NCBI RefSeq assembly: GCF_030913635.1
Contig: NZ_CP133188.1
Location: 806,001 to 870,000 of the forward strand
Reading direction: 5' to 3'
Origin: Sedimentibacter sp. MB35-C1
GTDB lineage: Bacteria; Bacillota; Clostridia; Tissierellales; Sedimentibacteraceae
DNA: 64,000 nucleotides
The translations under genes were made by a program, and so were the position numbers. Positions 20,505 through 34,876 of this stretch are shown one piece after another (the stretch's first letter is position 1; each line of letters starts with the position of its first letter). Below the pieces are notes generated by a model. It did no database searches and was not told the DNA's origin. It saw only the letters and a list, made by a program, of their open reading frames with translations.

Positions 20505-22355
20505 TTAATTATTTGCTGCGCTTGTTCCAGCTATTTTTCCGAATACTACTGTATCAACAACTGCATTTCCACCCAGTCTGTTTCCACCGTGAATTCCTCC
20601 GGTGATTTCTCCTGCAGCGAATAATCCTTCGATTATGTCACCGTCAGCATTTAATGCGTGGCATTCTTTGTCTATTCTTACTCCACCCATAGTGTGGTGT
20701 GCTGCTGGAACTCTTGGCAATGCGTACCAAGGACCATTTTCAAATTTCTTAGTAAGTAATTCTCTGTCGAATTCGTCTACTCCACTGTCAACTGATTCGT
20801 TGTATTTTTCTATTGAAGCTTTGAGGTTTTCAGCAGGTACATTTATTTTTTCAGCAAGCTCTTCCAGTGTTTCTCCTGTTTGCCATCCGTATACATTATC
20901 TTCTAAGATTTCAGTCATTGGAACACCTTCAAGAGTTTTGGCTTGTGTGATGTCAGGAAGAACATCTGCACTGTGAATCATGTACATTAATCCTTCAGGC
21001 TGATCTAATATTGCCTTGCATATTACGTCTCTTCTGCCGTCTTCTCTTACGAATCTGTTTCCTTCTTCGTTTATAAATACTGTGTTTTCAGCTCCTAAGT
21101 TGTACAGACCTGCAATACTTCCATTTTTAGGGATGCTCAGATACAGAAGCTGAATTAAATCCATGTCTATAAGTTCTGCACCTGCTTCGAAAGCCATGTT
21201 TATACCGTCTCCAGTAACGCCAGGCATGTTTGTTGTAGGTACATTTTCTCCTAAATCAGGCCATTTTCCTGAAGTGTTGTATTCTTGTCTTAGTTCTACA
21301 TTGCCTGCAAATCCTCCTGTTGCAAGGATTACACCTTTGTTTGCGTTAAGTGTAAGCTCGCTGCCATCTTTATTTGTGGCTTTAACTCCTACAACTTTGT
21401 CGCCGTCCAATATTAATGTATCACCTTTTGTATCTGTAAGAATTTTGCACTTGTCAGCTCTTTGGTCTAATGTTTCAGTGTATGCATTGATAAAGCCTGT
21501 TCCCAGAGGATCCAAAGACTGGTGTGTTCTTGGGTAAAGTGAACCGGCACCTTGTATTATTTTATCATCAAACTGCATTCCTAAGCTTTTCAGCCATTGA
21601 AGTCCGTCGTAAGCATTTCCGCACAATGTATCAACAAGCTCAGGGTTACCCATGTTGTCTCCGCCTTCCAGAGTCTGTTTAGCGTACAGTTCAACTGAAT
21701 CTTCTATGCCTTGAGCTGGTTGCAGTTCAGGATCTGGAGTGTTGTAAATACCTCCGCACACTGCTGTATTGCCACCTAAGATGCCCATTTTTTCAATTAC
21801 TATAACGCTGGCTCCTTCATCTGTGGCAGATACTGCTGCAGCTAGTCCTGCTCCGCCTCCGCCTACTATTATTACGTCTGCAGTAAGTTCGCTTGGATAT
21901 TCACTAACAATTTTATCTGCATCAGATTTATATGAAGCAATGTCGGCGCCTGCTTGTTTTAAACAGCTTTCAACTGATGCCAGAATGGCGTTGCTTGTAA
22001 GAGTTGCTCCGGTAATTGTATCAACAGCCAGAGTCTGTCTTTCTATGATTTCTTTCGGAATCTGTTCTATTGGAACTGTTCCAACTCCAGGAGTTTCATA
22101 GTTTTCAAGAACTTTGATGTCTTTTATTTCATTTTCGTCAACTGTGACGTTAACTTTTAGCTTTCCACCAAGTCCTTGGAATTCACCGCTGTATGTACCA
22201 GGTGTCAAGTTCCCCTTACCTGTTTTTGGAGTTTCTTCTGTTTTTGAAGGCTCCTCACCCTCCTTGGCGGTATTATCAGTAGTTGCACAGGCAGCTAAAG
22301 AAAACAGCATGGCTACAACTAAAAATACAGATATTAATTTTTTAAAATTTTTCAT
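20505..22355 (-). CDS. Exported lipoprotein flavin reductase: FMN-binding plus FAD fumarate-reductase-like domains
   Basis: 616 residues. A signal peptide ends in the lipobox LFSLAAC, so the mature protein is membrane-tethered outside the cell. Residues about 50-125 are an FMN_bind domain with the covalent flavinylation motif DTITGATLTS (Thr is the expected FMN attachment site for ApbE). From about 150 to the end is a FAD_binding_2 domain: ADVIIVGGGGAGLAAAV, GGNTAVCGG, the active-site stretch AAHHTMGGVRID and GLFAAGEITGGIHGGNRLGG. The build matches flavocytochrome-c-like fumarate/urocanate reductases that use extracellular small molecules as electron acceptors. The actual acceptor is unknown. 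It is a single-gene unit; no ApbE or electron-donor complex is in the window. Confidence 0.88.
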   Translation of the reverse strand: MKNFKKLISVFLVVAMLFSLAACATTDNTAKEGEEPSKTEETPKTGKGNLTPGTYSGEFQGLGGKLKVNVTVDENEIKDIKVLENYETPGVGTVPIEQIPKEIIERQTLAVDTITGATLTSNAILASVESCLKQAGADIASYKSDADKIVSEYPSELTADVIIVGGGGAGLAAAVSATDEGASVIVIEKMGILGGNTAVCGGIYNTPDPELQPAQGIEDSVELYAKQTLEGGDNMGNPELVDTLCGNAYDGLQWLKSLGMQFDDKIIQGAGSLYPRTHQSLDPLGTGFINAYTETLDQRADKCKILTDTKGDTLILDGDKVVGVKATNKDGSELTLNANKGVILATGGFAGNVELRQEYNTSGKWPDLGENVPTTNMPGVTGDGINMAFEAGAELIDMDLIQLLYLSIPKNGSIAGLYNLGAENTVFINEEGNRFVREDGRRDVICKAILDQPEGLMYMIHSADVLPDITQAKTLEGVPMTEILEDNVYGWQTGETLEELAEKINVPAENLKASIEKYNESVDSGVDEFDRELLTKKFENGPWYALPRVPAAHHTMGGVRIDKECHALNADGDIIEGLFAAGEITGGIHGGNRLGGNAVVDTVVFGKIAGTSAANN

Positions 22356-22647: not shown

Positions 22648-24420
22648 TTAAATTTCTATATTATATTCCTTGATTTTTTGATACAGGGATGCCCTGCTGA
22701 TATCTAAAGCTTTTGCGGCTTTATTTATGCTGTTTTTTTCGTTGTTGAATTTTTGCAGTGTTTCCTGAATGATGGAGCTTTCATATTGCTTAATCATATT
22801 TTTTAGCGAAGAGTTGTCATGATTATTTGTATATGTAAGGATATCCGGGGGATATACAGACTTTGTAAGTCGGGGACCGTCTTCCAGGTTTATGGCATAT
22901 TCAATTGCGTTTTCTAACTCTCGTATATTGCCGGGCCATGTGTAGCTTTTCAGCATATTTAAAAAGTCATTGTCAACTCCGGATATATTCTTTTTTAATC
23001 GAGTATTGTATTTTTTAATAAAATGAAATACAAGATCATTAAAATCTGAAATCCGGTTTCTTAGGGGAGGTACATTTAACGGAAGTATGTTTAAACGGTA
23101 AAACAGATCCGATCGGAATTTTTTATCCTGCACCATTTTTTCAAGGTTCTGATTTGTGGCAGCTATAATGCGTATGTCTAAATCTATGGGATGGAAACCG
23201 CCGAGTCGTATGACCTGATTATCCTGAAGAACACGTAAAAGCTTTGCTTGCAGATGAAGAGGCATATCTCCGACTTCGTCGAGAAAAATTGTTCCGTTAT
23301 TTCCTATTTCAAAAAGGCCTGCCTTTCCACCCTTGCTTGCACCGGTAAAAGTTCCTTCTTCATAACCGAAAAGCTCACTTTCCAAAAGGCTGTCAGGTAT
23401 GGCTGCACAGTTGATCGTAACAAATGGCTTATCGCGGCGCGAGCTTAGGCTGTGAAGGCTTCTTGCAACCAATTCTTTGCCGGTTCCCGTTTCGCCTCTT
23501 ATTAAAACAGTAGAAGTGCTTTGTGAAAAATGACTTATTTTATTCTTCAATTCCATTATTTCAGGGCTTTTTCCCACAATTTGATTTAATGAATCGTCAG
23601 GAGTCAGGGCAGGTACGTTAGACATAAACCTTCGAGCATCTTCAATTGTTCTTACAAAAAATGCAAACCCTGCACATGTGCCGTCTTCGCTTTTCATTGC
23701 TTTGCAGCTTAATATCATACGGTGCATTATGTTATTAAAAACTATTGCGCTTTCCTGGTCTTCAAAACCTTTTTTTTCAAGAATAGCTAAAGATATTGCT
23801 CGGGATTCTACAAGCTCGGTTATATTAATATTAGCATTATTATTGGAATCGAGATTGAAAAAATTGTAAAAGGCCTGGTTTGCGCATTGTATTATGCCGT
23901 TGGTATTGCATGTAAAAACTATGTAGTCCATGTGCTGGATTATAGCATCAAGCTGTTTGTATGTTTTTTCTGCTTCAAGCTTTGAAAAATGTTCTTTGCC
24001 GGCGCTTACCATTACATTAATCATTGTTTGAAGAAATTCAACAACCTGCTTTTTGTTTTTTAAGTACATTTTCTTAGCTTCCTGCGAAAATGTTACAATA
24101 CTAATATAGCCGATATATTTCTCCTTAATGTCAAAGGGAACAATAATCTCCAGAGTTTGAGGGCAGTTACCTTCATTGGAGCATCCTTTGCACAGAGGGT
24201 TTTCTCCTGGATTCTCTATAATGGCTATTTCTTTTCGCTTTATTATAGTATCAATGTATGGCTTCCACTCAGCGTTTTTTTTACGTTTCAGATAACTATC
24301 ATTAAATGCCATAAAAGAACCGTTTTGGTCAACGATAATGACTTCGGCATCATTTAAAATTTTGCTTGTTGCTTTAACTATTTCGATGGCTATCTCTTTA
24401 ATTTTTTGTAATTCACTCAT
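22648..24420 (-). CDS. Sigma-54-dependent activator with Cys-rich sensor domain (paralogue A)
   Basis: 590 residues from ATG 24420, preferred because GGAG lies about 8 bases upstream; a longer frame reaches 24519 without a site. Domains: N-terminal sensor (about 1-170) with NPLCKGCSNEGNCPQTLEI (C-x2-C-x5-C), a PAS-like domain (about 170-285), AAA+ sigma-54 interaction domain (about 300-530) with Walker A GETGTGKE, the sigma-54 loop EEGTFTGA, Walker B GTIFLDEVGDMP and R-finger region RLNILPLNVPPLR, then a Fis-type HTH INKAAKALDISRASLYQKIK. It is divergent from the glycyl radical operon and next to two palindromes plus a -24/-12 promoter, so it very likely activates that operon. The ligand is unknown; the Cys cluster suggests metal or Fe-S binding. 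A paralogue lies at 28114. Confidence 0.92.
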   Translation of the reverse strand: MSELQKIKEIAIEIVKATSKILNDAEVIIVDQNGSFMAFNDSYLKRKKNAEWKPYIDTIIKRKEIAIIENPGENPLCKGCSNEGNCPQTLEIIVPFDIKEKYIGYISIVTFSQEAKKMYLKNKKQVVEFLQTMINVMVSAGKEHFSKLEAEKTYKQLDAIIQHMDYIVFTCNTNGIIQCANQAFYNFFNLDSNNNANINITELVESRAISLAILEKKGFEDQESAIVFNNIMHRMILSCKAMKSEDGTCAGFAFFVRTIEDARRFMSNVPALTPDDSLNQIVGKSPEIMELKNKISHFSQSTSTVLIRGETGTGKELVARSLHSLSSRRDKPFVTINCAAIPDSLLESELFGYEEGTFTGASKGGKAGLFEIGNNGTIFLDEVGDMPLHLQAKLLRVLQDNQVIRLGGFHPIDLDIRIIAATNQNLEKMVQDKKFRSDLFYRLNILPLNVPPLRNRISDFNDLVFHFIKKYNTRLKKNISGVDNDFLNMLKSYTWPGNIRELENAIEYAINLEDGPRLTKSVYPPDILTYTNNHDNSSLKNMIKQYESSIIQETLQKFNNEKNSINKAAKALDISRASLYQKIKEYNIEI

Positions 24421-24591
24421 TTTAAACATCTCCGGATTTAAATAAAAACTAGTAATATTTTTTTGAGGCGCGGTAGTTTTTAAGTTTATTATATCAGAAA
24501 CATATAAAAGTATATACAATATTTTAGAATTTTGATAATATTTTTAGTTATATTAATCTTTTTTGCTCAAAAAGTATAAAATTATGGAAAG

Positions 24592-24611
24592 TTGTCTAAA
24601 ATTTTAGACAA
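24592..24611. promoter_or_regulatory. Perfect 20-base palindrome, candidate upstream activator site 1
   Basis: TTGTCTAAAATTTTAGACAA is a perfect dyad containing the 16-base core GTCTAAAATTTTAGAC. A second near-identical core lies 73 bases downstream (about seven helical turns), and both precede the sigma-54 promoter of the glycyl radical operon. This arrangement is typical of enhancer sites for sigma-54 activators. Confidence 0.75.
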
Positions 24612-24662
24612 AGGAGAGTGCTCGCCTATTAGCACATCTTTGGTGAGCTGCAGTAATAAGTG

Positions 24663-24686
24663 AATAGTCTAAAAAATTAGACTATT
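24663..24686. promoter_or_regulatory. Inverted repeat, candidate upstream activator site 2
   Basis: AATAGTCTAA and TTAGACTATT flank an AAAA centre. The 16-base core GTCTAAAAAATTAGAC differs from site 1 at only two central positions. Its centre is 73 bases from site 1 and about 97 bases before the -24 element. Confidence 0.75.
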
Positions 24687-24770
24687 ATATATATTAACAG
24701 TTTTTACAATTTGCATCATTAATCTCTCTGTATGGCTGATATCAAGCAAAAGAGCTGATAAAACAAAAGG

Positions 24771-24786
24771 TGGCATGCAATTTGCT
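24771..24786 (+). promoter_or_regulatory. Sigma-54 (-24/-12) promoter of the glycyl radical operon
   Basis: TGGCATG-CAAT-TTGCT matches the consensus TGGCACG-N4-TTGCW with exact spacing and one change. It is 46 bases before the enzyme's ATG and downstream of the paired palindromes, with a sigma-54 activator divergently encoded. Confidence 0.88.
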
Positions 24787-24831
24787 TACTTATTAAATTA
24801 AGAAAATAAAGCATATTTTGGAGGAGGCAGT

Positions 24832-27237
24832 ATGGATAGAAATAAAATTGCAAATGTTAAGCCTACAGATCGTATCAAGAGGATAAGACAGGCAGTTATA
24901 GATGCAAAACCTATTTTGTGCAGTGAAAGGGCTTTGTCGGTTACTAAGAGTTACCGTGAGACAGAAGGAAAACATTACATCGAAAGGCGCGCCAGATCTC
25001 TTGAAAAAATATTGGGAGAAATAACACTTAATATTTGGGATGATGAGTTGATAGTTGGAAACCATGGTAAGAATGGAAGAAGATCAGCTCCTGTATACCC
25101 GGACTTTTCCATTGAGTGGCTTCAAGAAGAGCTTGACGAAACTTTAGAGACACGTGAACAGGATACATTTATTGTTCCGCAATATGTAAAAGATGATTTA
25201 AAAAGTATTTTTCCGTATTGGGAAGGAAAGACTATATATAAAAAATATAGAAATCTGCTTCCTGAAGATACAAAGGTAGTCAGAGATGCATACATGTTTT
25301 CAAGGGATTTATTTGAAAGAAACGGCTACGGTCATACAGCATATCAGGCTGAAAAGCTTCTTAAGGTTGGAATAAAAGGACTTAAAGAAGAAGTTAGCGC
25401 TAAAATTAAACAACTGGATTTGTCTGTTGGTGATGATTTTAATAAGAAATTATTTTATGACGGACTTTTGATATGCTTTGATGCTGTTATAAACTACGCA
25501 AAGAGATACAGCAAAAAAGCTTTAGAAATGGCTGAAGTTGAAAAAGATCCAAAAAGAAAATCAGAATTAGAAAAAATTGCTGATGTTTGTGCATGGGTAC
25601 CTGAAAACCCGGCTAGAGATACATGGGATGCGCTGCAGGTTATACAGTTCATGCAGATTATTATTCAGCTGGAAACTAACGGAGACTCTGTTTCTCCAGG
25701 TAGAATGGACCAATATCTGTATCCGTATTTTAAGAAGGATATGGAAGAAGGAAAATACAGTATTGAACAAATACAGGAACTTTATGACTGCCTTTGGATT
25801 AAATTTAATGAAATAGTTAAGGCACAGGATACAGAATCCATTCATATTCATCCAGGATTCCCTATGACTCCCAATGTTACAGCAGGAGGAGTAAAACCTA
25901 ATGGAGAGGATGCAGTAAACGAAGTTAGCTTTATTATGTTGAACTGTCAGGAACATATACGTCTGACAAATCCTCAGTTTACAGTTCGTTTCCACGATAA
26001 AACTCCTGAGGATTTCAAAGAACGTGTTGCTGAAATTATAGAATACGGTACAGGAATGCCTGCTCTTTTTGGAGACAACGGATGTATATCAGCTATGAAG
26101 CGCGCTGTTCCGGACATGCCTATTGAAAATATGCGTAACTTCGCAATTGTAGGTTGTGTTGAACTTGCTCCTCAGGGATTCCAAGGACGTGTAAACGGCG
26201 GAATGCTGAATGTTGCAAGAGTAGTAGACCTTGCTATGAATAACGGGATTGACAGACTTACAGGAAAACAGCTTGGTTTAAAAACAGGTAACCCTGAAGA
26301 CTTTAAAACATTTGATGATTTGTTCAACGCTGTTAGAAGCCAGATGCAGTTTATTCTTAAGCATCAGGTAGTAAATGCAATGGTTGTTGACTTTGTACAG
26401 CGTGAAAATACACCGCATTTATTCTTATCTTCATTGATTGACGGTTGTATAGATAATGGTAAGGATATGACATGGGGAGGCTCAAAATGGGGCGCAACTC
26501 CTATTCTTATGGCTGGTCTTGCAACTGCATCTAACTCATTGACAGCAGTTAAGCACCAAGTGTTTGACATGAAAAAGATGGATATGAATAAATTAAATGA
26601 AGTTTTAAACAGCAATTTTGAAGGCGAAGACGGTGAAAAAATCAGAACCGAATTGCTGAACGAACCAAAATATGGAAATGATAATGACTACGCTGACGAA
26701 GTTATGTGCAAATTGACAGATATGTTCTTTGAAGAAATTGAGAAACATAAAGATATAGACGGAAGAAACTACACTAACATGATCCTTACATTGGGCGGAA
26801 CTGTTCCTCACGGATGGAAGACCGGAGCTACTGCAGACGGAAGAAAATCCAAAATGCCTGTGTCTGACTCAATGTCACCATCTAATGAAGGAAATAGTGA
26901 AGGGCCGACTGCAGTCCTATTATCTGCAAGTAAAATTAAGCAAAGTCACATACTTGAAGGAAATGTGCTTAATCTTAAATTAAGTAAGACTGCAATAGCA
27001 AGCGAAGAGGCTAAGAAAAAGCTAATGAGTCTTGTATCAACATATTTTAGTCCTTTGAATGGCCAGGAAGTTCAATTTAATGTTGTATCAACAGAAACAT
27101 TGAAAGATGCTCAGAAACATCCTGAGAAATATAAAGATTTAATTATCCGTGTTGCCGGATACAGTGCCCGTTTTATCGAGCTTGCAAGGGAACTTCAGAA
27201 CGATATTATTGCGAGGGCAGAGCATGAAAGAATATGA
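24832..27237 (+). CDS. Glycyl radical enzyme, eliminase-type, specificity unassigned
   Basis: 801 residues, full length for the PFL/glycerol-dehydratase superfamily. The active-site thiyl cysteine is Cys442 in IVGCVELAPQG; the Cys-x-Glu pattern is that of eliminase/decarboxylase GREs, not pyruvate formate-lyase (Cys-Cys). The glycyl radical site is Gly776 in IIRVAGYSARF near the C-terminus. Other GDH-like blocks include QLETNGDSVSPGRMDQYLYP, PQFTVRFHDKTPEDF and GGSKWGATP. The sequence after the catalytic Cys (APQGFQGRVNGGMLNVARV) is not one I can match to choline lyase, glycerol/propanediol dehydratase or hydroxyproline dehydratase, so the substrate is open. It overlaps its activase by 14 bases and is driven by a sigma-54 promoter. 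AGGAGG precedes the ATG. Cytoplasmic, oxygen-sensitive. Confidence 0.93.
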   Translation: MDRNKIANVKPTDRIKRIRQAVIDAKPILCSERALSVTKSYRETEGKHYIERRARSLEKILGEITLNIWDDELIVGNHGKNGRRSAPVYPDFSIEWLQEELDETLETREQDTFIVPQYVKDDLKSIFPYWEGKTIYKKYRNLLPEDTKVVRDAYMFSRDLFERNGYGHTAYQAEKLLKVGIKGLKEEVSAKIKQLDLSVGDDFNKKLFYDGLLICFDAVINYAKRYSKKALEMAEVEKDPKRKSELEKIADVCAWVPENPARDTWDALQVIQFMQIIIQLETNGDSVSPGRMDQYLYPYFKKDMEEGKYSIEQIQELYDCLWIKFNEIVKAQDTESIHIHPGFPMTPNVTAGGVKPNGEDAVNEVSFIMLNCQEHIRLTNPQFTVRFHDKTPEDFKERVAEIIEYGTGMPALFGDNGCISAMKRAVPDMPIENMRNFAIVGCVELAPQGFQGRVNGGMLNVARVVDLAMNNGIDRLTGKQLGLKTGNPEDFKTFDDLFNAVRSQMQFILKHQVVNAMVVDFVQRENTPHLFLSSLIDGCIDNGKDMTWGGSKWGATPILMAGLATASNSLTAVKHQVFDMKKMDMNKLNEVLNSNFEGEDGEKIRTELLNEPKYGNDNDYADEVMCKLTDMFFEEIEKHKDIDGRNYTNMILTLGGTVPHGWKTGATADGRKSKMPVSDSMSPSNEGNSEGPTAVLLSASKIKQSHILEGNVLNLKLSKTAIASEEAKKKLMSLVSTYFSPLNGQEVQFNVVSTETLKDAQKHPEKYKDLIIRVAGYSARFIELARELQNDIIARAEHERI

Positions 27238-28012
27238 TGATATAACAGGGATAATTTATGATGTACAGCGATACAGTGTACATGACGGCCCGGGAATTAG
27301 AACAACGGTATTTTTAAAAGGATGTCCACTGAGATGCCTCTGGTGCTCTAATCCGGAGTCTCAAAACTTTGAAATTGAGCACATGAAAAAATTTCAAAGC
27401 GATGAAGAAGAGCTGGTAGGAAAGAAAGTATCGGTTAAGGAAGTTATGGAAGCAGTGCTTAGAGACAAAGTATTCTTTGATAATTCCGGTGGCGGAGTTA
27501 CTTTATCAGGAGGCGAAGTATTGGCACAGCCGCAGTTCGCTTCTGCTATAATAGCTGCAGCTTCAGAGGCAGGAGTGCACACAGCTGTTGAAACCAGTGG
27601 ATTCAGCAAATTCGAAACCGCTTGGAAAGTTTTTGAACATGTGGATTTAATACTTTATGATATTAAAGGCATGGACGATGAAGAACATAAAATTAATACA
27701 GGTGTTTCCAATGAAGTAATTCATGAGAACCTGAAAAAACTCATAGAAAAAGGAAAAGAAGTCATAGTTAGGGTTCCTCTGATACCCGATCACAATGACA
27801 GTGTTAAAAATATTCAGGGAGTTGTTGATTTTTCATCACAGATAGGTGTAAAATCAATAGAAATACTTCCGTATCATCGACTTGGTGAAGGTAAATATGA
27901 AAGGCTTTCCAGAGAGTACCAACTTAAAGGGTTAAAGACTCAACCAAAGGAATATGCACAAGAGCTGCTTTCAAAGATATCTAAGCCTGATGGCCTAAAA
28001 ATAACAGTATAG
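27224..28012 (+). CDS. Glycyl radical enzyme activase, radical SAM, minimal form
   Basis: 262 residues from ATG 27224, inside the end of the enzyme gene, with GAGGG upstream; longer in-frame starts read deeper into that gene. The radical-SAM motif is KGCPLRCLWCSNPES (Cys34, Cys38, Cys41), preceded by HDGPGIRTTVFL, and the SAM-binding GGE is in VTLSGGEVLAQP. It installs the glycyl radical on the overlapping enzyme. Most activases of glycerol-dehydratase-like enzymes carry a ferredoxin-like insert with two more Fe-S clusters after this motif; here the insert is absent and the three cysteines above are the only ones in the protein. In that respect it resembles PFL activase. Confidence 0.92.
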   Translation: MKEYDDITGIIYDVQRYSVHDGPGIRTTVFLKGCPLRCLWCSNPESQNFEIEHMKKFQSDEEELVGKKVSVKEVMEAVLRDKVFFDNSGGGVTLSGGEVLAQPQFASAIIAAASEAGVHTAVETSGFSKFETAWKVFEHVDLILYDIKGMDDEEHKINTGVSNEVIHENLKKLIEKGKEVIVRVPLIPDHNDSVKNIQGVVDFSSQIGVKSIEILPYHRLGEGKYERLSREYQLKGLKTQPKEYAQELLSKISKPDGLKITV

Positions 28013-28027
28013 GTTGATAATATTCAG

Positions 28028-28066
28028 TATCGGAATATCTTGCAAAGGGGTATTCCGATAATTTTG
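28028..28066 (+). terminator. Hairpin after the glycyl radical operon (terminator or operator)
   Basis: TATCGGAATA (28028-28037) pairs with TATTCCGATA (28051-28060), followed by a short T-rich stretch. It lies 15 bases after the activase stop and before the second activator gene, so it is probably a weak terminator; a binding site role is possible. Confidence 0.6.
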
Positions 28067-28113
28067 TTACGGACTGTAAATAAATTAATAAAAAGTAAAT
28101 GGGAGGAATAAAT

Positions 28114-29865
28114 ATGCTGAATGATCCGGCTGTCATAAATACCATACAACATGTTGCAAAGTCAATAGCTGCTATTTTAAATGTTGAGATTATGATAATG
28201 GACAATAAATTAAATAAGCTTGGCGGTACTGTTAATAACGAAAAGAACTATTATATTAGCAACATCTATAAATATATTATGAAAACCGGAGACGAAGTAA
28301 TAGTAGATAATCCCGGGTTTCATTATTTGTGTGAGAATTGTAAAAATTATAAACACTGCCCTCAAAAAGCAGAGTTTGACTTTCCGATAAAAATCGGCAA
28401 CGAAATAATAGGAATTTTAAGTATAGTCGGATATACGGAGGAGCATAAAAGAATAATGCTGTCCAGAAAAAATGATTATATAAAATTTCTTGAGGTAATG
28501 TGTCAAATGATTTCTACAAAGGCAATGGAAGTCTCTATTTCTAAAAAATTAAAAATTTCAGCAATTCAGATGACCCATATATTCAATTCTATAAACGAAG
28601 GAATTATAGGAACGGATGAAAATGGAAATATAACTCATTTCAGTAAAACTGCAGAGAAAATATTTAAAGCCAATAAGGATAGTATTATAGGCAAAAAAAT
28701 CAATTGTATCTTCCCAAATATTGAAATTAACGATAAAGGACATTTCCCTAAATATGATAAAAGAGAGGTCAAAGCATTGCTTGGCAATGGAAATGAGCTG
28801 ATTTGTTACATTTCTACAAATACCCTGGAAGACAAAGACGGAAGAATAATTGGCGGTATTATAACTATTTCTAATTCAAAAGATATTCAAAAGATAGTAA
28901 GCAATATTATTGATAATAAAAGTGTGCATTTTTGCGATATTATAGGCGAAAGCGGAACTATTTGCAATGCTAAACAGAAAGCTGAAATTTCGGCAAAGGG
29001 GTATTCCACTATTATGATAAGGGGGGAAAGCGGAACAGGTAAAGAGCTTTTTGCAAGAGCAATACACAGCTTGAGCCCAATGGCTGATGGACCGTTTATA
29101 GCTATAAATTGTGCGGCTATTCCCGAGACGTTGCTGGAAAGTGAATTATTCGGATATGATAACGGGGCTTTCACAGGCGCTAAAAAGGGAGGTAAGCCTG
29201 GTAAGTTCGAATTGGCTGATGGAGGAACATTATTTCTGGATGAAATAGGTGACATGCCCATTTACCTGCAGTCTAAAATATTGCGTGTTTTACAGGATAA
29301 AAAGGTACAAAGAGTCGGAGGAGTATCGGAAGTACCTGTAAATGTCAGAATTATATCTGCTACAAACAGAAATTTGGAGGAGCTGGTCTCAGAAAAAAGG
29401 TTCAGAGATGACTTGTATTATCGACTTAACGTAATTCCGATTATGATACCCTCCATAAGAGACCGCAAGGATGACATTCCATTATTGACTGATTATCTTT
29501 TGAATAAATACAATGGTATTTTCAATAAAGACATTAAGGAGATAGATTATAAAGTGCAGTGCATATTTGAGGCGTATGATTGGCCGGGTAATGTCCGAGA
29601 GCTTGAAAATGTTATTGAATATGCTATGAATATGGAAAAAAGCAATATTATAACAGAAGCAAGTATACCTAAAAATATAATTACTCCATGCAATAAAAAA
29701 GAAGATAAATCTTTGGATAACATAGTGAAAGAATTTGAAAAGAAAGTTATCAGCGAAAGAGCGAGAGAATACGGAACCAGCAAAGAAGACAGGAAAAAAT
29801 TAGCTGAGGATCTCAATATTGGTATAGCAACATTGTATAGAAAATTAAAGCAGTACGATATATGA
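28114..29865 (+). CDS. Sigma-54-dependent activator with Cys-rich sensor domain (paralogue B)
   Basis: 583 residues from ATG 28114; GGGAGGA lies 7 bases upstream, while an ATG at 28099 overlaps that site. Layout matches paralogue A: sensor domain with [20 protein letters not shown] (C-x2-C-x4-C), PAS (about 150-265, [18 protein letters not shown]), AAA+ with GESGTGKE, the sigma-54 loop [35 protein letters not shown], and a C-terminal [22 protein letters not shown]. It stands between the glycyl radical operon and the aminotransferase-ortAB operon, which has its own consensus sigma-54 promoter 172 bases downstream of this gene. Control of that second operon is the simplest inference. Ligand unknown. 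Confidence 0.92.
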
Positions 29866-29870
29866 TTCGA

Positions 29871-29908
29871 GGTATCAAAACCGATAATATATTATCGCTT
29901 TTGATACC
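29871..29908. promoter_or_regulatory. 38-base near-perfect palindrome, candidate activator site
   Basis: Outer arms GGTATCAAAA and TTTTGATACC enclose CGATAATATATTATCG; only one base pair of the 38-base dyad is mismatched. No T run follows, so it is a poor terminator. It starts 5 bases after the paralogue B stop and about 150 bases before the -24 element at 30037, a usual enhancer distance. A smaller palindrome TATCATTAATGATA lies at 29963-29976. Confidence 0.65.
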
Positions 29909-30036
29909 GAGCTTGAAAGCTGTGAAATTAATGCCAAGAAATAATATCAGTGATTAAAAGAGTATCATTAATGATAACTGATTATTTATTAAAATTAAAA
30001 GTGCGCATTTTATAACATTTATAACTCCTGAATAAT

Positions 30037-30052
30037 TGGCACGGAAATTGCA
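30037..30052 (+). promoter_or_regulatory. Consensus sigma-54 promoter of the aminotransferase-symporter-ortAB operon
   Basis: TGGCACG-GAAA-TTGCA fits TGGCACG-N4-TTGCW at every fixed position. The predicted start near 30064 leaves a leader of about 145 bases before the aminotransferase start. Confidence 0.92.
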
Positions 30053-30076
30053 TCTTTAATATTATAGCATGCTAAA

Positions 30077-30177
30077 AGATAGCGTTTGTGGCTATCTGAA
30101 AAAACTAATATTAGATATTTTCATAGAAGAGGAGTGATTTATTTGTAATAATCCGTATGAATTAACAAATTAATCAC
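30077..30177 (+). promoter_or_regulatory. Structured 5' leader with two stem-loops
   Basis: The first stem-loop pairs AGATAGC (30077-30083) with GCTATCT (30091-30097). The second pairs GTGATTTATTTG (30134-30145) with CAAATTAATCAC (30166-30177) at 11 of 12 positions. I recognise no known riboswitch. They may stabilise the mRNA or affect expression of the operon. Confidence 0.4.
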
Positions 30178-30208
30178 AGATGTTGCGTAATATTTAAGGA
30201 GGCATAAA

Positions 30209-31588
30209 TTGAGCAGTCATACCGAAAACGACATAATAACAAAAGTAACTGACAAAACTTATTCAATAATTGATAGGGAAAATAAAATAATGTCATACAC
30301 AACAAGGGTTCCATACTATCCCTTAATAGTAGAAAGGGCAAAAGGAGCCAAGGTTGTTGATATTGAAGGAAATGAATTTATTGATTTTCTTTCAAGTGCA
30401 GCGGTAATTAATGTGGGACACAATCACCCTAAGGTGGTTAAAGCAGTGAATGATCAAGTCAACAAGTTTATTCATTATACACCTGCGTATATGTATCATA
30501 AACCGCATATAGAATTAGCGGAGAAACTTGCAGAAATTACTCCCGGCAATTTTGAAAAGAGAGTGGCTTATGGATTGTCTGGATCATCATCTGTAGATGG
30601 TGCAATCAAAGCTGCAAGATGTTTTACAAAAAGAAAAAAAATAATTTCCTTCCTAAGATCCTATCATGGTACAACATTTGGAGCTTTAAGTGTTTCCGGA
30701 TATGGCACTGAAATGAGACGCGGAATGGAACCGATGGTTCCGGAAGTGGAGTTTATACCTTATCCTGATTGCTACAGGTGTTTGAATAACAAAAAAAGAA
30801 CTGACTGCAATTTAGCATGTTTGAAATATTTTGAAAATATGCTTGAAACAGTGGTTCCGCCTGAAGAAGTGGCTGCAATCATATTTGAACCTATGCAAGG
30901 GGATGCGGGTATAATTGTGCCTCCGCAGGAGTATTATGACAAACTGATAGGTATATGTAAGCGTTATGGAATTTTAGTAATTGCGGATGAAGTACAAACA
31001 GGTTTTGGAAGAACAGGAAAGATGTTTGCTTGCGAGCATTTTGGTATAGAGCCTGATATTATAGTTATGGGAAAAGCCATAGCATCGGGAATGCCGTTAA
31101 GTGCAATAGTTGCAAGAAAAGAAATTTTTGAAAGTTGGGGTGCTCCGGTTCATTTCTTTAATACGGCCGGAAATGCTGTATCATGCAGTGCATCCATAGC
31201 TACAATTGATGTAATTAATGATGAAAAATTACTTGATAATGCTAATACACAAGGGGATTATATAATTAGCAGATTCAGGGCATTGATGGAAAAGTATAAT
31301 TGTATCGGAGATGTCCGCGGTACAGGTATGTTTATAGGAGTAGACATAGTTAAGGATAGAAATACAAAAGAACGTGATGTTAACAAAACAGCTAAGATTT
31401 GTTGGAGATGCTGGGAAAAAGGCCTTATATTGGCATTTTTCAGCGGTTCGGTTCTAAGGGTTGAACCTCCATTGTGCTTAAGTCGTGAAGAGGCTGAAAA
31501 AGCAATGGATATTATTGAAAAGGCAATTGCTGAAGTAGAAGAAGGACTTGTACCGGACGAAGTATTGGAACAAATTAAGGGCTGGTAA
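30209..31588 (+). CDS. Class III PLP aminotransferase or related amino-acid racemase
   Basis: 459 residues from a TTG start with AAGGAGG 8 bases upstream. Fold-type I class III motifs: FLSSAAVINVGHNHPKVVKA, the PLP-phosphate region YGLSGSSSVDGAIKAARC, VIADEVQTGFGRTGKMFACE and the catalytic Lys289 in VMGKAIASGMPLSA. The Cys-rich insert YPDCYRCLNNKKRTDCNLAC is typical of the clostridial/archaeal branch that includes omega-amino-acid transaminases and several amino-acid 2-epimerases. First gene of an operon with an AGCS symporter and OrtAB. It could form the keto group of the OrtAB substrate, or racemise alanine made by OrtAB; these are inferences. A simple GABA-type transaminase is also possible. 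Confidence 0.85.
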   Translation: MSSHTENDIITKVTDKTYSIIDRENKIMSYTTRVPYYPLIVERAKGAKVVDIEGNEFIDFLSSAAVINVGHNHPKVVKAVNDQVNKFIHYTPAYMYHKPHIELAEKLAEITPGNFEKRVAYGLSGSSSVDGAIKAARCFTKRKKIISFLRSYHGTTFGALSVSGYGTEMRRGMEPMVPEVEFIPYPDCYRCLNNKKRTDCNLACLKYFENMLETVVPPEEVAAIIFEPMQGDAGIIVPPQEYYDKLIGICKRYGILVIADEVQTGFGRTGKMFACEHFGIEPDIIVMGKAIASGMPLSAIVARKEIFESWGAPVHFFNTAGNAVSCSASIATIDVINDEKLLDNANTQGDYIISRFRALMEKYNCIGDVRGTGMFIGVDIVKDRNTKERDVNKTAKICWRCWEKGLILAFFSGSVLRVEPPLCLSREEAEKAMDIIEKAIAEVEEGLVPDEVLEQIKGW

Positions 31589-31649
31589 TACACTTAGTTA
31601 TTTTTTATAATAGATATCGAAAATTTAAAATTAAACGGAGGAGTTTATT

Positions 31650-33080
31650 ATGCTACAACAGATAATGGATAGTATTAACGGAATACTATGGAGTAACGCA
31701 CTAATATTATTAGCTTTATTGTCAGGACTTTATTACACAATAAGGACTAAAGGAGCACAGTTTAGATATATAAAACTTATGACACATTATATGTTTGAAA
31801 AAAATGATTCCAATGTCGGAAGAAGTGCTTTCCAATCATTTGCATTAACAATGTCAACAAGAGTTGGTACAGGAAATATAGCAGGAGTTGCTTCTGCAAT
31901 TTCAATTGGAGGACCTGGAGCAATATTTTGGATGTGGGCTTCCGCAATTTTAGGAGCAGGTACTACAATAATAGAATGTACACTGGCTCAAATATACAAA
32001 AGCACAGATGGAGATGAATATAGAGGAGGTCCTCAATATTTTATCGACAAAGGTTTAGGAATTAAATGGTATGCAATGTTATTTGCTGTTTGCTCAATAT
32101 TTGCACTTGGTTTCTGTACTCCTGGAATGCAGTCTAATGCCATTGCTGATGCAATGTATGTTGCATTTGGAACAAATAAATTAATGCTTGGAGTAATAGT
32201 TGCAATATTAGCATCATTGATTATATTCGGTGGAATAAAAAGAATAAGTAAATTTGCAGAGCTTATTGCTCCTGTAATGGCTATAATATATTTATGTATT
32301 TCTATTGTAATGATTGTAGCACATTTCACTGAAATCCCTGCAGTATTTGCTTTAATATTCAAAAGTGCATTTGGAACTGACGCTGTATTTGGAGGAATTG
32401 TAGGAAATGCAGTAATGATGGGAGTTAAGAGAGGTATCTACTCAAACGAAGCTGGTATGGGTACTGCATCTCAGGCTGCTGCTACTGCAAAGGTAAGCCA
32501 CCCTGCAAAATCAGGATTAGTTCAGGCTATGTCTGTATATATAGATTCAATTTTCGTTTGTACTTCAACAGCTTTGGTTATTATATTCACAGGTATGTAC
32601 AATGTAGATGGTATAGTTGAAAACCTTCCTGGAATTCAAGCCGGACCTGGATATGTACAAAATGCCATAGATACTTTTATTCCTGGCTTTGGTTCTGTAT
32701 TTGTAGCATTGGCTATGTTGTTCTTCGCTTTTACTACAATCTTAGGAAACTACTATGCTGCTGAAACAGGCGCTGCTTATGTATGCAAAGCATCTAAGAA
32801 AATAAATCAGAAATATTTATTAACAGCTTTAAGAATTGCAACTTTAGCAGCAATTTTAATATTCTGTTCAAAACCATCAGTGCTTGCATGGGCAATGGCA
32901 GATGTAGGAATGGGCGTTATGTCATGGCTAAACTTAATAGCATTGCTTCTCTTAAGCAACACTGCTATTAAAGTATTTAAAGATTTCGAAGAACAGTATA
33001 AACTTAATAAAGAAATAGTATTCAATCCTGAAAAATTAGGAATAAAGAATACTGAAGTTTGGGAAAAAGAGTCTAAATAA
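31650..33080 (+). CDS. Sodium:alanine/glycine symporter (AGCS family)
   Basis: 476 residues with about 11 membrane segments. Family signatures: FQSFALTMSTRVGTGNIAGV and GGPGAIFWMWASAILGA near the N-terminus and GVKRGIYSNEAGMGTASQAA in the middle. AGCS proteins take up L- or D-alanine and glycine with Na+. It follows the aminotransferase by 61 bases with a good GGAGG site and precedes OrtAB, whose known amino-acid product is D-alanine. It may import the pathway's amino-acid substrate or move alanine; direction and substrate are not visible in the sequence. Confidence 0.93.
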   Translation: MLQQIMDSINGILWSNALILLALLSGLYYTIRTKGAQFRYIKLMTHYMFEKNDSNVGRSAFQSFALTMSTRVGTGNIAGVASAISIGGPGAIFWMWASAILGAGTTIIECTLAQIYKSTDGDEYRGGPQYFIDKGLGIKWYAMLFAVCSIFALGFCTPGMQSNAIADAMYVAFGTNKLMLGVIVAILASLIIFGGIKRISKFAELIAPVMAIIYLCISIVMIVAHFTEIPAVFALIFKSAFGTDAVFGGIVGNAVMMGVKRGIYSNEAGMGTASQAAATAKVSHPAKSGLVQAMSVYIDSIFVCTSTALVIIFTGMYNVDGIVENLPGIQAGPGYVQNAIDTFIPGFGSVFVALAMLFFAFTTILGNYYAAETGAAYVCKASKKINQKYLLTALRIATLAAILIFCSKPSVLAWAMADVGMGVMSWLNLIALLLLSNTAIKVFKDFEEQYKLNKEIVFNPEKLGIKNTEVWEKESK

Positions 33081-33092
33081 TTGCCAAATAAT

Positions 33093-33125
33093 AAGTAACT
33101 CATTTTTCAATAAAATGAGTTACTT
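33093..33125 (+). terminator. Strong intercistronic hairpin between symporter and ortA
   Basis: AAGTAACTCATTTT (33093-33106) pairs perfectly with AAAATGAGTTACTT (33112-33125) around a 5-base loop. The T run afterwards is interrupted (AATTATTATAT), so it may be a partial terminator or mRNA processing/stability element that sets ortAB levels below the symporter. Confidence 0.65.
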
Positions 33126-33168
33126 AATTATTATATATATATTTAATATTTAAAAAGGAAGTGTAGCA

Positions 33169-33474
33169 ATGATTAAAAAAGGCGAATGGGTTTTAATACA
33201 CAGAAATGTATTAGAACCGTCTCAAAGAGCTCCACAAGCACCTGAAGATACTAAAAAAGTACCTTTGGAAATGTGGGTAAAAGGATACTTACAGGAAGAT
33301 GCAAATATTGGAGATGAAGTTACAGTAGTAACTAGAACTAAAAGAACTGAAAAAGGAACTTTGCTGGAAGCAAATCCGTACTATAAACATGACTTTGGCA
33401 CATTTGTTCCTGAGTTAATGAAAATCAGCGATCAAGTGAAAGATATTTTATTTGGAGGTGCTGACAATGAGTAA
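33169..33474 (+). CDS. ortA: 2-amino-4-oxopentanoate thiolase, alpha subunit
   Basis: 101 residues, matching the small OrtA subunit. Seen: GEWVLIHRNVLEPSQRAPQA, PLEMWVKGYL, IGDEVTVVTRT and PYYKHDFGTFVPELM. OrtA pairs with OrtB to cleave 2-amino-4-oxopentanoate with CoA to acetyl-CoA and D-alanine, the last step of anaerobic ornithine oxidation in clostridia. It overlaps ortB by 8 bases. The other ornithine-pathway genes (ornithine racemase, aminomutase OraSE, 2,4-diaminopentanoate dehydrogenase) are not in this window; instead an aminotransferase and symporter precede it. Confidence 0.93.
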   Translation: MIKKGEWVLIHRNVLEPSQRAPQAPEDTKKVPLEMWVKGYLQEDANIGDEVTVVTRTKRTEKGTLLEANPYYKHDFGTFVPELMKISDQVKDILFGGADNE

Positions 33475-34876
33475 GGATATGAGCTATTCAGCAGTAATGA
33501 GCAGAAGACCTGAAATAATGAAAAAGGCTGCCGGCTTGGATTTCGCAGAATTTGAAAGTGGTTCAATTGCATTCGACTATGAAAGAATGATGAAAGAAGC
33601 AGGATTTACAATAGAAGAAATTCAGAAAATTCAATCAGAACATGGAGTAGGAAATACACCTATTATAGAACTTAGAAATCTGACAGCATTAGCAAGAAAA
33701 GCTGCTCCTGAAGGAAAAGGCGCAAGAATATTCATAAAAGATGAAGCATCAAATGCATCCGGCAGCTTTAAAGCAAGAAGAGCATCTACAGCAGTATACC
33801 AGGCATGGAAACTTGGATATAAAGGTGTTGTTTCAGCAACAAGCGGTAACTATGGTGCAGCAGTTGCATCACAGGCTGCAATGTATGGACTGAAATGTAT
33901 AGTAGTTCAGGAGTGCTATGATTCTAAAGGAATTGGACAGCCTGAAATAATTGAAAAAGCAAGAAAATGTGAAGCACTGGGAGCAGAAGTAGTACAACTT
34001 ACTGTAGGCCCTGAGCTATTCTACACATTCTTGGCTATACTTGAAGAAACAGGATATTTCAATGCATCACTTTATACACCATATGCAATAGCAGGTATTG
34101 AAACATTAGGATATGAAATATCAATGCAGTTCAGAGAAAAATACGGCAAGGATCCAGATGTAGTAGTTTGCACAAATGCCGGCGGTGGAAACCTGACTGG
34201 TACTGCAAGAGGATTGGAAAAAGCAGGTGCAAAATCAAAAATAGTTGCTGCAAGTGTTGAATTGTCAGGATTGCACATGGCTTCTGACAGCCAATTCAAC
34301 AAAAAATCATTTACAACAGGTCACACAGGCTTTGGAATTCCTTTCACAACATGGCCGGATAGATCAGATGTTCCTAGATCTGCAGCAAGATCATTGAGAT
34401 ATTTGGACAGATATGTAACTGTTCGCCAAGGAGAAGTGTTCTATATTACAGAAACACTTGCAAGCCTTGAAGGACTGGAAAAAGGACCTGCAGGAAATAC
34501 AGCATTAACAGCTGCATTCTCTCTGGCACAGGAATTAGATCAGGATCAGATGATAGTTGTACAGGAAACTGAATACACAGGAGCTGGAAAGCACGTTCAG
34601 CCACAGCTTGCATTTGCCAGAGAAAACGGAATAGAAGTAAAATTCGGAGATCCTAAAGATGAAGTTCCGGGCAAAAATATAATATTGCCATCACATCCAT
34701 CATTGATTAAAGCAAATGATGCAGACGTTGAACACATGAGAAGATCTCTTATCAAAAATGCTTTGAAAAACTATGATGTTGTACCAAATGATGCAGATAT
34801 AAAATTCTTAGCAGAAGAAACAAACACTAATGTTGATTTTGTAAAAGCTGCAATTAAAGAATTAAAAGCAAAATAG
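33467..34876 (+). CDS. ortB: 2-amino-4-oxopentanoate thiolase, beta subunit (PLP)
   Basis: 469 residues from ATG 33467 (GGAGGTG 6 bases upstream, overlapping the ortA end). It is a fold-type II PLP protein: the Schiff-base lysine lies in NASGSFKARRA, the Asn/Ser loop in SATSGNYGAAVASQA, and the phosphate-binding glycines in CTNAGGGNLTGTARG. This resembles threonine synthase-like enzymes but fits OrtB length and the OrtA partner. The complex makes acetyl-CoA and D-alanine from 2-amino-4-oxopentanoate, saving energy as a thioester. It is followed by a good terminator, closing the operon. Confidence 0.93.
   Translation: MSKDMSYSAVMSRRPEIMKKAAGLDFAEFESGSIAFDYERMMKEAGFTIEEIQKIQSEHGVGNTPIIELRNLTALARKAAPEGKGARIFIKDEASNASGSFKARRASTAVYQAWKLGYKGVVSATSGNYGAAVASQAAMYGLKCIVVQECYDSKGIGQPEIIEKARKCEALGAEVVQLTVGPELFYTFLAILEETGYFNASLYTPYAIAGIETLGYEISMQFREKYGKDPDVVVCTNAGGGNLTGTARGLEKAGAKSKIVAASVELSGLHMASDSQFNKKSFTTGHTGFGIPFTTWPDRSDVPRSAARSLRYLDRYVTVRQGEVFYITETLASLEGLEKGPAGNTALTAAFSLAQELDQDQMIVVQETEYTGAGKHVQPQLAFARENGIEVKFGDPKDEVPGKNIILPSHPSLIKANDADVEHMRRSLIKNALKNYDVVPNDADIKFLAEETNTNVDFVKAAIKELKAK

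Follow-up and report, generated by a model that had tools for sequence, protein, structure and literature searches.

A two-operon sigma-54 module of Sedimentibacter linking an unassigned glycyl radical enzyme to a 2-amino-4-oxopentanoate thiolase

We analysed a 64,000-nucleotide stretch of the genome of Sedimentibacter sp. MB35-C1 (hereafter the window; positions 806,001 to 870,000 of NZ_CP133188.1, the single 3.62-Mb contig of this genome), in which positions 22648-34876 carry, in this order, genes for RegA (minus strand), a glycyl radical enzyme (GRE), its activase, RegB, a pyridoxal phosphate (PLP) enzyme annotated as 'class III aminotransferase', an AGCS symporter, OrtA and OrtB. These genes form a module which is real, functionally coherent, rare and conserved in few lineages. 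With moderate confidence, we read it as one catabolic module of two sigma-54 operons, in which the GRE would make 2-amino-4-oxopentanoate (AKP) from a 4-hydroxy amino acid and OrtAB would yield acetyl-CoA and D-alanine. The original prediction, made from the DNA letters, had reported eight genes within 12 kb with a -24/-12 promoter before each operon, and all of these are present.

Conservation and promoters of the module

Besides the window genome, three genomes of the family sample (27 genomes), G019, G023 and G011, carry GREs of 64-98% identity. The order sample (249 genomes; E <= 1e-160, with up to 4 candidates scored in each genome, so that partial copies may have gone unseen) added that of G029 (69%), and a fragment in G223 was found as the neighbour of a PLP-enzyme match. 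Except for the window's own, no GRE above 62% was found in 391 class and 398 phylum genomes (E <= 1e-172, up to 2 candidates scored in each genome; the samples of 249, 391 and 398 overlap). The nearest named locus is L005 of Sedimentibacter sp. LM3-B4.1, with a GRE 98% identical to that of the window.

The layout of G019 is that of the window. In G023, a single strand carries RegB-GRE-activase-PLP enzyme-AGCS-ortA-ortB, and G011 shows the same order as far as AGCS, at which its contig breaks off. Of the six genomes with this GRE clade, five have GRE, activase and PLP enzyme in one locus, and in three (G000, which is the window genome, G019 and G023) that contig extends to ortAB. The two halves are one module. 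As a control, 80 of 112 matched GRE-centred loci were inspected, 40 of them with full flanks; a single one has ortB, ortA, PLP enzyme and AGCS (E <= 1e-20), and this one, L005, is a module locus. The GRE clade is rare while ortB is common (101 of 249 order genomes, E <= 1e-150).

Another locus of G019, on contig C35 (L156:5675-13572), encodes a class I aminotransferase-like protein, an HpcH-type aldolase-like protein and a protein of the FAA-hydrolase family, followed by ortA-ortB-PLP enzyme-AGCS (41%, 64%, 68% and 48% identical to the window, respectively). None of the first three proteins passes any NCBIfam model listed. Between the hydrolase gene and ortA lies a degenerate activase piece, which over a span of 42 residues shares 71% identity with the activase of G029. 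We read this locus as a second copy of the module that has decayed.

The exact sigma-54 pattern TGGCAYGNNNNTTGCW has only two matches on both strands of the 64 kb, one before the GRE and one before the PLP enzyme, against a mean of 0.02 expected (100 shuffles, none of which gives two). With one mismatch allowed, the same two sites were found against 0.95 expected. For each operon the sequence shows a predicted -24/-12 promoter, an activator gene and upstream boxes. A three-box array, GTATCA-N4-TGATA with spacings of 20-21 and 68-71 bp, is present in the window, G019, G023 and G011. It lies before the GRE in G023 (L150 8333, 8401, 8421) and G011 (L151 2004, 2024, 2093), and before the PLP enzyme in G019 (L153 13040, 13111, 13131) and the window (29872, 29893, 29962). 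A -24/-12 promoter stands after each array, and the array moves together with the module promoter. The number of RegB-type boxes is not extreme alone in the window (5 matches versus 2.07 expected, 5 of 100 shuffles reaching 5); 200 shuffles never attained the counts observed for L150, L151 and L153.

The GRE operon of the window has different palindromes, GTCTAA-N4-TTAGAC, 73 bp apart, and a similar pair 71 bp apart occurs in L153. RegA is presumed to activate this operon, and each regulator would pair with its own box type. RegA (PF00158 230 bits; PAS 20 bits, under the cut-off of 22.6; PrdR model 386 bits, under the cut-off of 795) and RegB are paralogues with 36% identity across 577 residues. 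We read these arrangements as a change of control: RegB may formerly have run the whole module, the GRE pair having passed to RegA in the window lineage.

Coordinates are collected in Table 1. Genes overlap at two places, the GRE end with the activase start, and ortA with ortB, whose start was corrected, by our reading, to the ATG at 33467 inside an open reading frame (33452-34876) opening with TTG at 33452. Adjoining RegA, an FAD/FMN-binding protein (PF00890 and PF04205), lipoprotein-like by eye, is encoded at 20505-22355 on the minus strand.

Table 1. Genes, predicted promoters and boxes of the module (window coordinates)
Feature	Position	Strand	Remarks
RegA, sigma-54 activator, weak PAS match	22648..24519	-	likely start 24420, as read from the sequence
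Palindrome TTGTCTAAAATTTTAGACAA, presumed RegA upstream box 1	24592..24611	.	like box at L153 18334-18349
Palindrome TAGTCTAAAAAATTAGACTA, presumed RegA upstream box 2	24665..24684	.	like box at L153 18405-18420
-24/-12 (sigma-54) promoter TGGCATGCAATTTGCT, GRE operon	24771..24786	+	exact pattern match
Glycyl radical enzyme (GRE), 801 aa; Cys442, Glu444 (CXE), Gly776, His168, Asp285	24832..27237	+	
GRE activase, radical SAM, CxxxCxxC, 262 aa, without Cys-rich ferredoxin-like insert	27224..28012	+	
RegB, sigma-54 activator with PAS	28099..29865	+	PF00158; relatives 71% and 73% in L150 and L151
Two RegB-type boxes GTATCA-N4-CGATA, 1 mismatch each	29872-29886; 29893-29907 (-)		exact counterparts in L153, L150, L151
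Third RegB-type box GTATCATTAATGATA	29962..29976	.	exact
-24/-12 (sigma-54) promoter TGGCACGGAAATTGCA, second operon	30037..30052	+	exact pattern match
Fold-type I PLP enzyme, annotated class III aminotransferase, probably amino-acid racemase	30209..31588	+	
AGCS family sodium:alanine/glycine-type symporter	31650..33080	+	PF01235 476 bits; TIGR00835 (NCBIfam) 455 bits (cut-off 273)
OrtA, 2-amino-4-oxopentanoate thiolase small subunit	33169..33474	+	NF040739 138 bits (cut-off 70)
OrtB, 2-amino-4-oxopentanoate thiolase large subunit	33467..34876	+	NF040741 841 bits (cut-off 550)

The glycyl radical enzyme and the thiolase

GRE and activase are intact. The residues of a GRE eliminase (His168, Cys442-Val-Glu444 and Gly776) are present, with a CXE Cys loop, an RVAGY glycyl loop and the enzyme's own radical SAM activase next door. 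The GRE passes TIGR01774 (717 bits, cut-off 678) and stays under the cut-off of every specific GRE model listed in NCBIfam. Its best PDB match is glycerol dehydratase (1r8w, 578 bits), HplG (7vua) reaching 367 bits; identities are 38.9% to glycerol dehydratase, 36.4% to HypD and 30.2% to HplG. Most GREs of distinct function are separated at an identity level above 40-50% (PMC11528403, excerpt). In a quick tree of 43 rows, with support from the SH-like approximate likelihood ratio test (SH-aLRT) only and a long-branch warning, a clade with 100% support unites the four module rows (window, G019, G023, G029); its sister group is two GREs linked to TRAP carriers, and HplG and HypD are placed elsewhere, far from this clade.

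Three known activities were considered for the GRE, and those of HplG and HypD were rejected. Identity with HplG fails on 30% identity, separate branches and 367 bits to 7vua versus 1102 for the HplG of G008. Glycerol dehydratase, judged by His164, Ser282, Asp447 and CXE, fails at Asp447, a substrate residue of that enzyme, which is Asn455 here. HypD is out since the score is 617 bits versus a cut-off of 1100 and, among Asp278, Asp339, Phe340, Tyr450 and Thr645, only Asp278 is conserved; the window genome has a HypD of its own (1415 bits) for trans-4-hydroxy-L-proline. The residues by which HypD binds or processes hydroxyproline are given as His160, Asp278, Ser334, Asp339, Phe340, Cys434, Glu436, Tyr450 and Thr645 (PMC7077986, excerpt). 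In the window GRE, His160, Cys434 and Glu436 are conserved too, Asp339, Phe340, Tyr450 and Thr645 are replaced by Met345, Thr346, Met458 and Leu654, respectively, and the equivalent of Ser334 falls in an uncertain alignment loop.

The position of Asp285 is Asp in four of four module rows and Asn in three of three TRAP-linked rows; Arg453 and His340 are common to both groups. In the activase (TIGR02494, 299 bits, cut-off 174), the CxxxCxxC motif is invariant among nine of nine aligned sequences. A Cys-rich insert is absent from all five module activases and present in the four others aligned. A ferredoxin-like insert of about 70 residues occurs in most microcompartment-associated and many other GRE activases, unlike that of pyruvate formate-lyase (PMC6325248, excerpt).

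Just beyond the window end, at 872 kb of contig C1 (L161:6265-8634), lies a CutC-like GRE with a GCVV Cys loop, in which the glutamate of CXE is missing and the position of His164 is taken by Glu. There is a relative (67%) in L208, and Metaclostridioides mangenotii (L013) supplies a sister row. This GRE may catalyse a reaction other than the usual one.

Both thiolase subunits pass their NCBIfam equivalog models (Table 1). Compared with the copies in the ornithine operon of this genome, OrtA shows 95% identity and OrtB 92%. OrtAB turns (2R)-AKP into D-alanine. The ornithine set lies at 1883-1891 kb of C1 (L163), with its own ortA and ortB and with Ord (536 bits, cut-off 400), OraE (1397, cut-off 800), Or-4 (728, cut-off 600) and Orr (524, cut-off 480); a 116-residue protein in the place of oraS has no family listed at E <= 1e-30. 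The ortAB of the module is separate from this set. None of the eight module genes is ord, oraS, oraE or orr, in agreement with the original prediction, which had noted the lack of ornithine racemase, OraSE and Ord; the module is no ornithine operon. In the ornithine route the order is orr, oraSE, ord, ortAB (PMC8803604, excerpt). Since Ord, OraSE and Orr are all missing from the module, its AKP must be formed by a different reaction.

In a quick OrtB tree, the module copies of the window and G019 and that of G023 do not form one clade and sit among ornithine-type Sedimentibacter OrtBs, the G023 module copy being beside the second copy of G023; the copies of C35 and of contig C82 of G029 are a separate pair. 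Because of this kinship with ornithine-type copies, the substrate of the module thiolase should be AKP, and we consider this probable from the sequences. The 'beta-keto amino acid' first proposed is thereby narrowed, probably, to AKP itself, on the near identity of OrtA and OrtB to the ornithine copies.

Elsewhere, ortAB was seen beside an NhaC-type carrier with no AKP-making enzyme in sight (L157, L190, L199, L200, L201, L203 and L204); by our reading, six of these seven loci also hold a sigma-54 activator and a sensor-like protein.

Proposed route, substrate and alternatives

In the proposed route, a hydroxy amino acid would be taken up, presumably by the AGCS symporter, and the activase would arm the GRE. 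The GRE would cleave the C-heteroatom bond beside the C4 hydroxyl, by ketyl-radical 1,2-elimination or by opening of the ring of a 4-hydroxyproline, to give AKP. The PLP enzyme would either invert C2, in AKP or in an acyclic substrate, or racemise the alanine product, and OrtAB would thiolyse (2R)-AKP to acetyl-CoA and D-alanine. RegB, together with RegA in the window lineage, would switch the operons on. Any amino acid with a C4 hydroxyl and a C5 leaving group would give AKP by the usual GRE elimination.

For the substrate, an acyclic compound of the 4-hydroxyornithine or 4,5-dihydroxynorvaline type is a tentative first choice. It is favoured because the GRE is close to glycerol dehydratase, the sister clusters look acid-metabolising and C35 holds an aldolase and an aminotransferase. 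An amino-acid ABC carrier beside the G029 GRE (one locus, gap about 450 bp) has a solute-binding protein whose best match is 4ymx (199 bits), which we take to belong to an arginine/lysine/histidine system, and points weakly to 4-hydroxyornithine or 4-hydroxyarginine. In vitro, 4-hydroxy amino acids are made by an aldol-transamination tandem that uses a different aldolase (PMC8482765, abstract). Slightly more tentative is the complete version of this scheme, in which the GRE would eliminate the C5 group of such an acyclic 4-hydroxy amino acid to give AKP, a PLP-dependent AKP or alanine racemase and OrtAB would finish, and the GRE would be the amino counterpart of the presumed hydroxy-acid GRE of the TRAP clade (Asp285 versus Asn). 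A 4-hydroxyproline isomer, favoured by its abundance and by the HplG precedent, seems an unlikely substrate, and some other compound slightly less likely again. We rejected 5-hydroxylysine on chemical grounds, since its product would be 2-amino-5-oxohexanoate, which OrtAB should not cut.

As a special case of the proposed route, the GRE might be a ring-opening lyase for trans-4-hydroxy-L-proline or another isomer, with the PLP racemase inverting (2S)-AKP to (2R)-AKP. HplG acts on trans-4-hydroxy-D-proline, and its loci also combine a GRE with ortAB; in L152 and L202 a proline-racemase-family gene takes the place of the PLP enzyme. The PLP enzyme of the module could probably act only after ring opening, since the archaeal homologues of its family that were tested did not racemise proline, as far as the excerpt of PMC6047364 goes. 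Moreover, Asp285 aligns with Asp278 of HypD, a contact to the hydroxyproline amino group (PMC7077986, excerpt). On the other hand, the four HypD residues replaced in the GRE, its distance from HplG, the HypD already present in the genome and the company of the sister GREs (TRAP carriers, 2-hydroxyacid dehydrogenase, HMGL-like enzyme) make this rather unlikely. The only proline-racemase-family gene of the window genome lies at C1:928.6 kb, among what we read as proline-reductase genes.

The annotation of the PLP enzyme as a class III aminotransferase, adopted in the original prediction, does not agree with its best scores. The five best PDB matches are a broad-specificity racemase (453 bits), isoleucine 2-epimerase (438, 437 and 436 bits, the second chain also being named putative 4-aminobutyrate aminotransferase) and an alanine/serine racemase (389 bits), at least 74 bits ahead of the next chain, a named aminotransferase (314 bits). 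By this ranking the sequence is nearer to characterised racemases than to transaminases. A true transaminase, making or removing an amino or keto group and compatible with an AKP-making GRE, is nonetheless suggested by membership of the class III family and by PRK08360, 'aspartate aminotransferase family protein' (655 bits, cut-off 608); no racemase model listed in NCBIfam passes, that for leucine/methionine racemase scoring 491 bits versus a cut-off of 800. Set against this are the PDB ranking and the fact that archaeal racemases of the family were first annotated as 4-aminobutyrate (GABA) aminotransferases (PMC6047364, excerpt). We therefore regard a transaminase as unlikely and the enzyme as probably a racemase, judging from sequence. 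In the tree, a single clade (100/100) takes in the seven linked copies and leaves out seven unlinked homologues of 50-57%; all seven linked copies are beside ortB or inside the locus of this GRE. Concerning the separate fermentation route first proposed, the linkage of GRE, activase and PLP enzyme and the ornithine set with its own ortAB support it, but the role given to an aminotransferase probably falls to a racemase.

Several observations weigh against the proposed route. No ortB was found anywhere in the G011 assembly (87% complete). The G223 contig lacks ortAB and has GRE-activase-PLP enzyme with a truncated PLP gene and only the C-terminal, frame-broken part of the GRE. In G029, the GRE contig (C25) ends just past the activase, and ortB-PLP enzyme-AGCS-RegA-like starts contig C82. 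Joining the two contigs was tried and rejected (the contigs have no 15-mers in common, their ends do not overlap, and ortA is missing from the end of C82), and adjacency is not claimed. Independent lineages are few, as G000 and G019 are near copies. The pieces that carry the sister GREs of 60-61% identity, 11 and 18 kb long, hold TRAP-carrier clusters and no ortAB, so GREs this close can serve another pathway. On the pieces examined, none of the 50-57% PLP homologues of seven other genomes adjoins ortAB, and, among fold-type I homologues, PH1423 had no racemase activity and PH1501 only slight activity according to the excerpt of PMC6047364. Finally, AGCS could export alanine instead of importing the substrate.

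The co-location in other genomes that the original prediction called for is thus clear for GRE, activase and PLP enzyme and partial for ortAB. Neither a separation of the two halves in relatives nor the use of this ortAB by an ornithine set was found in full, given the linkage in five of six genomes and the ornithine set with its own ortAB. That the halves are independent neighbours, the GRE pair serving another pathway and the second operon handling AKP or alanine made elsewhere, is improbable: the window does have two operons with two box types, GREs of 60-61% occur without ortAB nearby and ortAB with a transporter and no visible AKP-making enzyme exists (the seven NhaC-type loci), but G023 and G011 show a single gene string with one box array, an activase remnant precedes ortAB in C35 and the PLP enzyme is directly 3' of the activase in G223.

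Among the matches listed in the open-access literature, there was no account of this GRE clade with PLP partner, carrier and regulation, and nothing on Sedimentibacter together with glycyl radical. The analysis gives an uncharacterised GRE clade a genomic address and a near-fixed probable product, AKP, and turns the substrate question into a short list of compounds. If the proposed route is true, anaerobes can ferment a hydroxy amino acid by a route of which we know no account, and radical C-N or C-O cleavage has been coupled to OrtAB at least twice. Acyclic elimination, if true, would mean that both the fermentation route and the GRE reaction are new, the coupling of GRE to OrtAB having arisen twice. 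These results also suggest that several amino-acid routes share ortAB as their exit, and that proteins annotated as 'class III aminotransferases' adjoining ortAB may be racemases.

Comparison with known systems

The ornithine operon (ord-ortA-ortB-oraS-oraE-or4-orr in L163) resembles the module in its OrtA and OrtB and in a sigma-54-activator-like gene upstream, and differs by its Ord, OraSE and Orr. B12-independent glycerol dehydratase (1r8w) shares His164, Ser282, Cys433 and Glu435 with the module GRE, whereas Asp447, Trp445, His281, Phe333 and Tyr339 are changed to Asn455, Arg453, Asp285, His340 and Thr346, respectively. Fold-type I amino-acid racemases (9wrf, 5ll2, 9wqz) match the PLP enzyme with 389-453 bits over nearly the whole chain, although the PLP enzyme forms its own clade.

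The TRAP-linked GREs (L006, L229), 60-61% identical, are the direct sisters of the module GREs. They have Asn for Asp285, their activase carries the Cys-rich insert, and their clusters hold a TRAP carrier, a 2-hydroxyacid dehydrogenase and an HMGL-like enzyme where the module holds AGCS, PLP enzyme and ortAB. In L229:9959-14791, tandem GREs (61% and 40% identical to the window GRE) lie with a TRAP carrier and 2-hydroxyacid-dehydrogenase-like and HMGL-like proteins, and we read them as a second unassigned GRE pathway.

The HplG loci (L152 in G008, L202 in G235) are like the module in that a GRE and its activase stand beside ortA-ortB and a presumed stereo-inverting enzyme; C2 inversion ahead of OrtAB may be their common need. 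The product of HplG is AKP. In contrast to the module, these GREs are 30% identical to it on a distant branch, a proline-racemase-family gene (at both loci under the cut-offs of specific models) replaces the PLP enzyme, and L152 has an NSS-type carrier, by our reading, in place of AGCS; the module activase, unlike that of the HplG system, is without the Cys-rich insert. L202 (5995-19786) also holds another HplG-like gene, which is frame-split into pieces of 35% and 44%, together with a GlmL-like protein and a 602-aa-type protein, in pieces. The general logic of coupling a GRE to OrtAB is thus already known from HplG in hydroxyproline fermentation, and the module is apparently its second invention.

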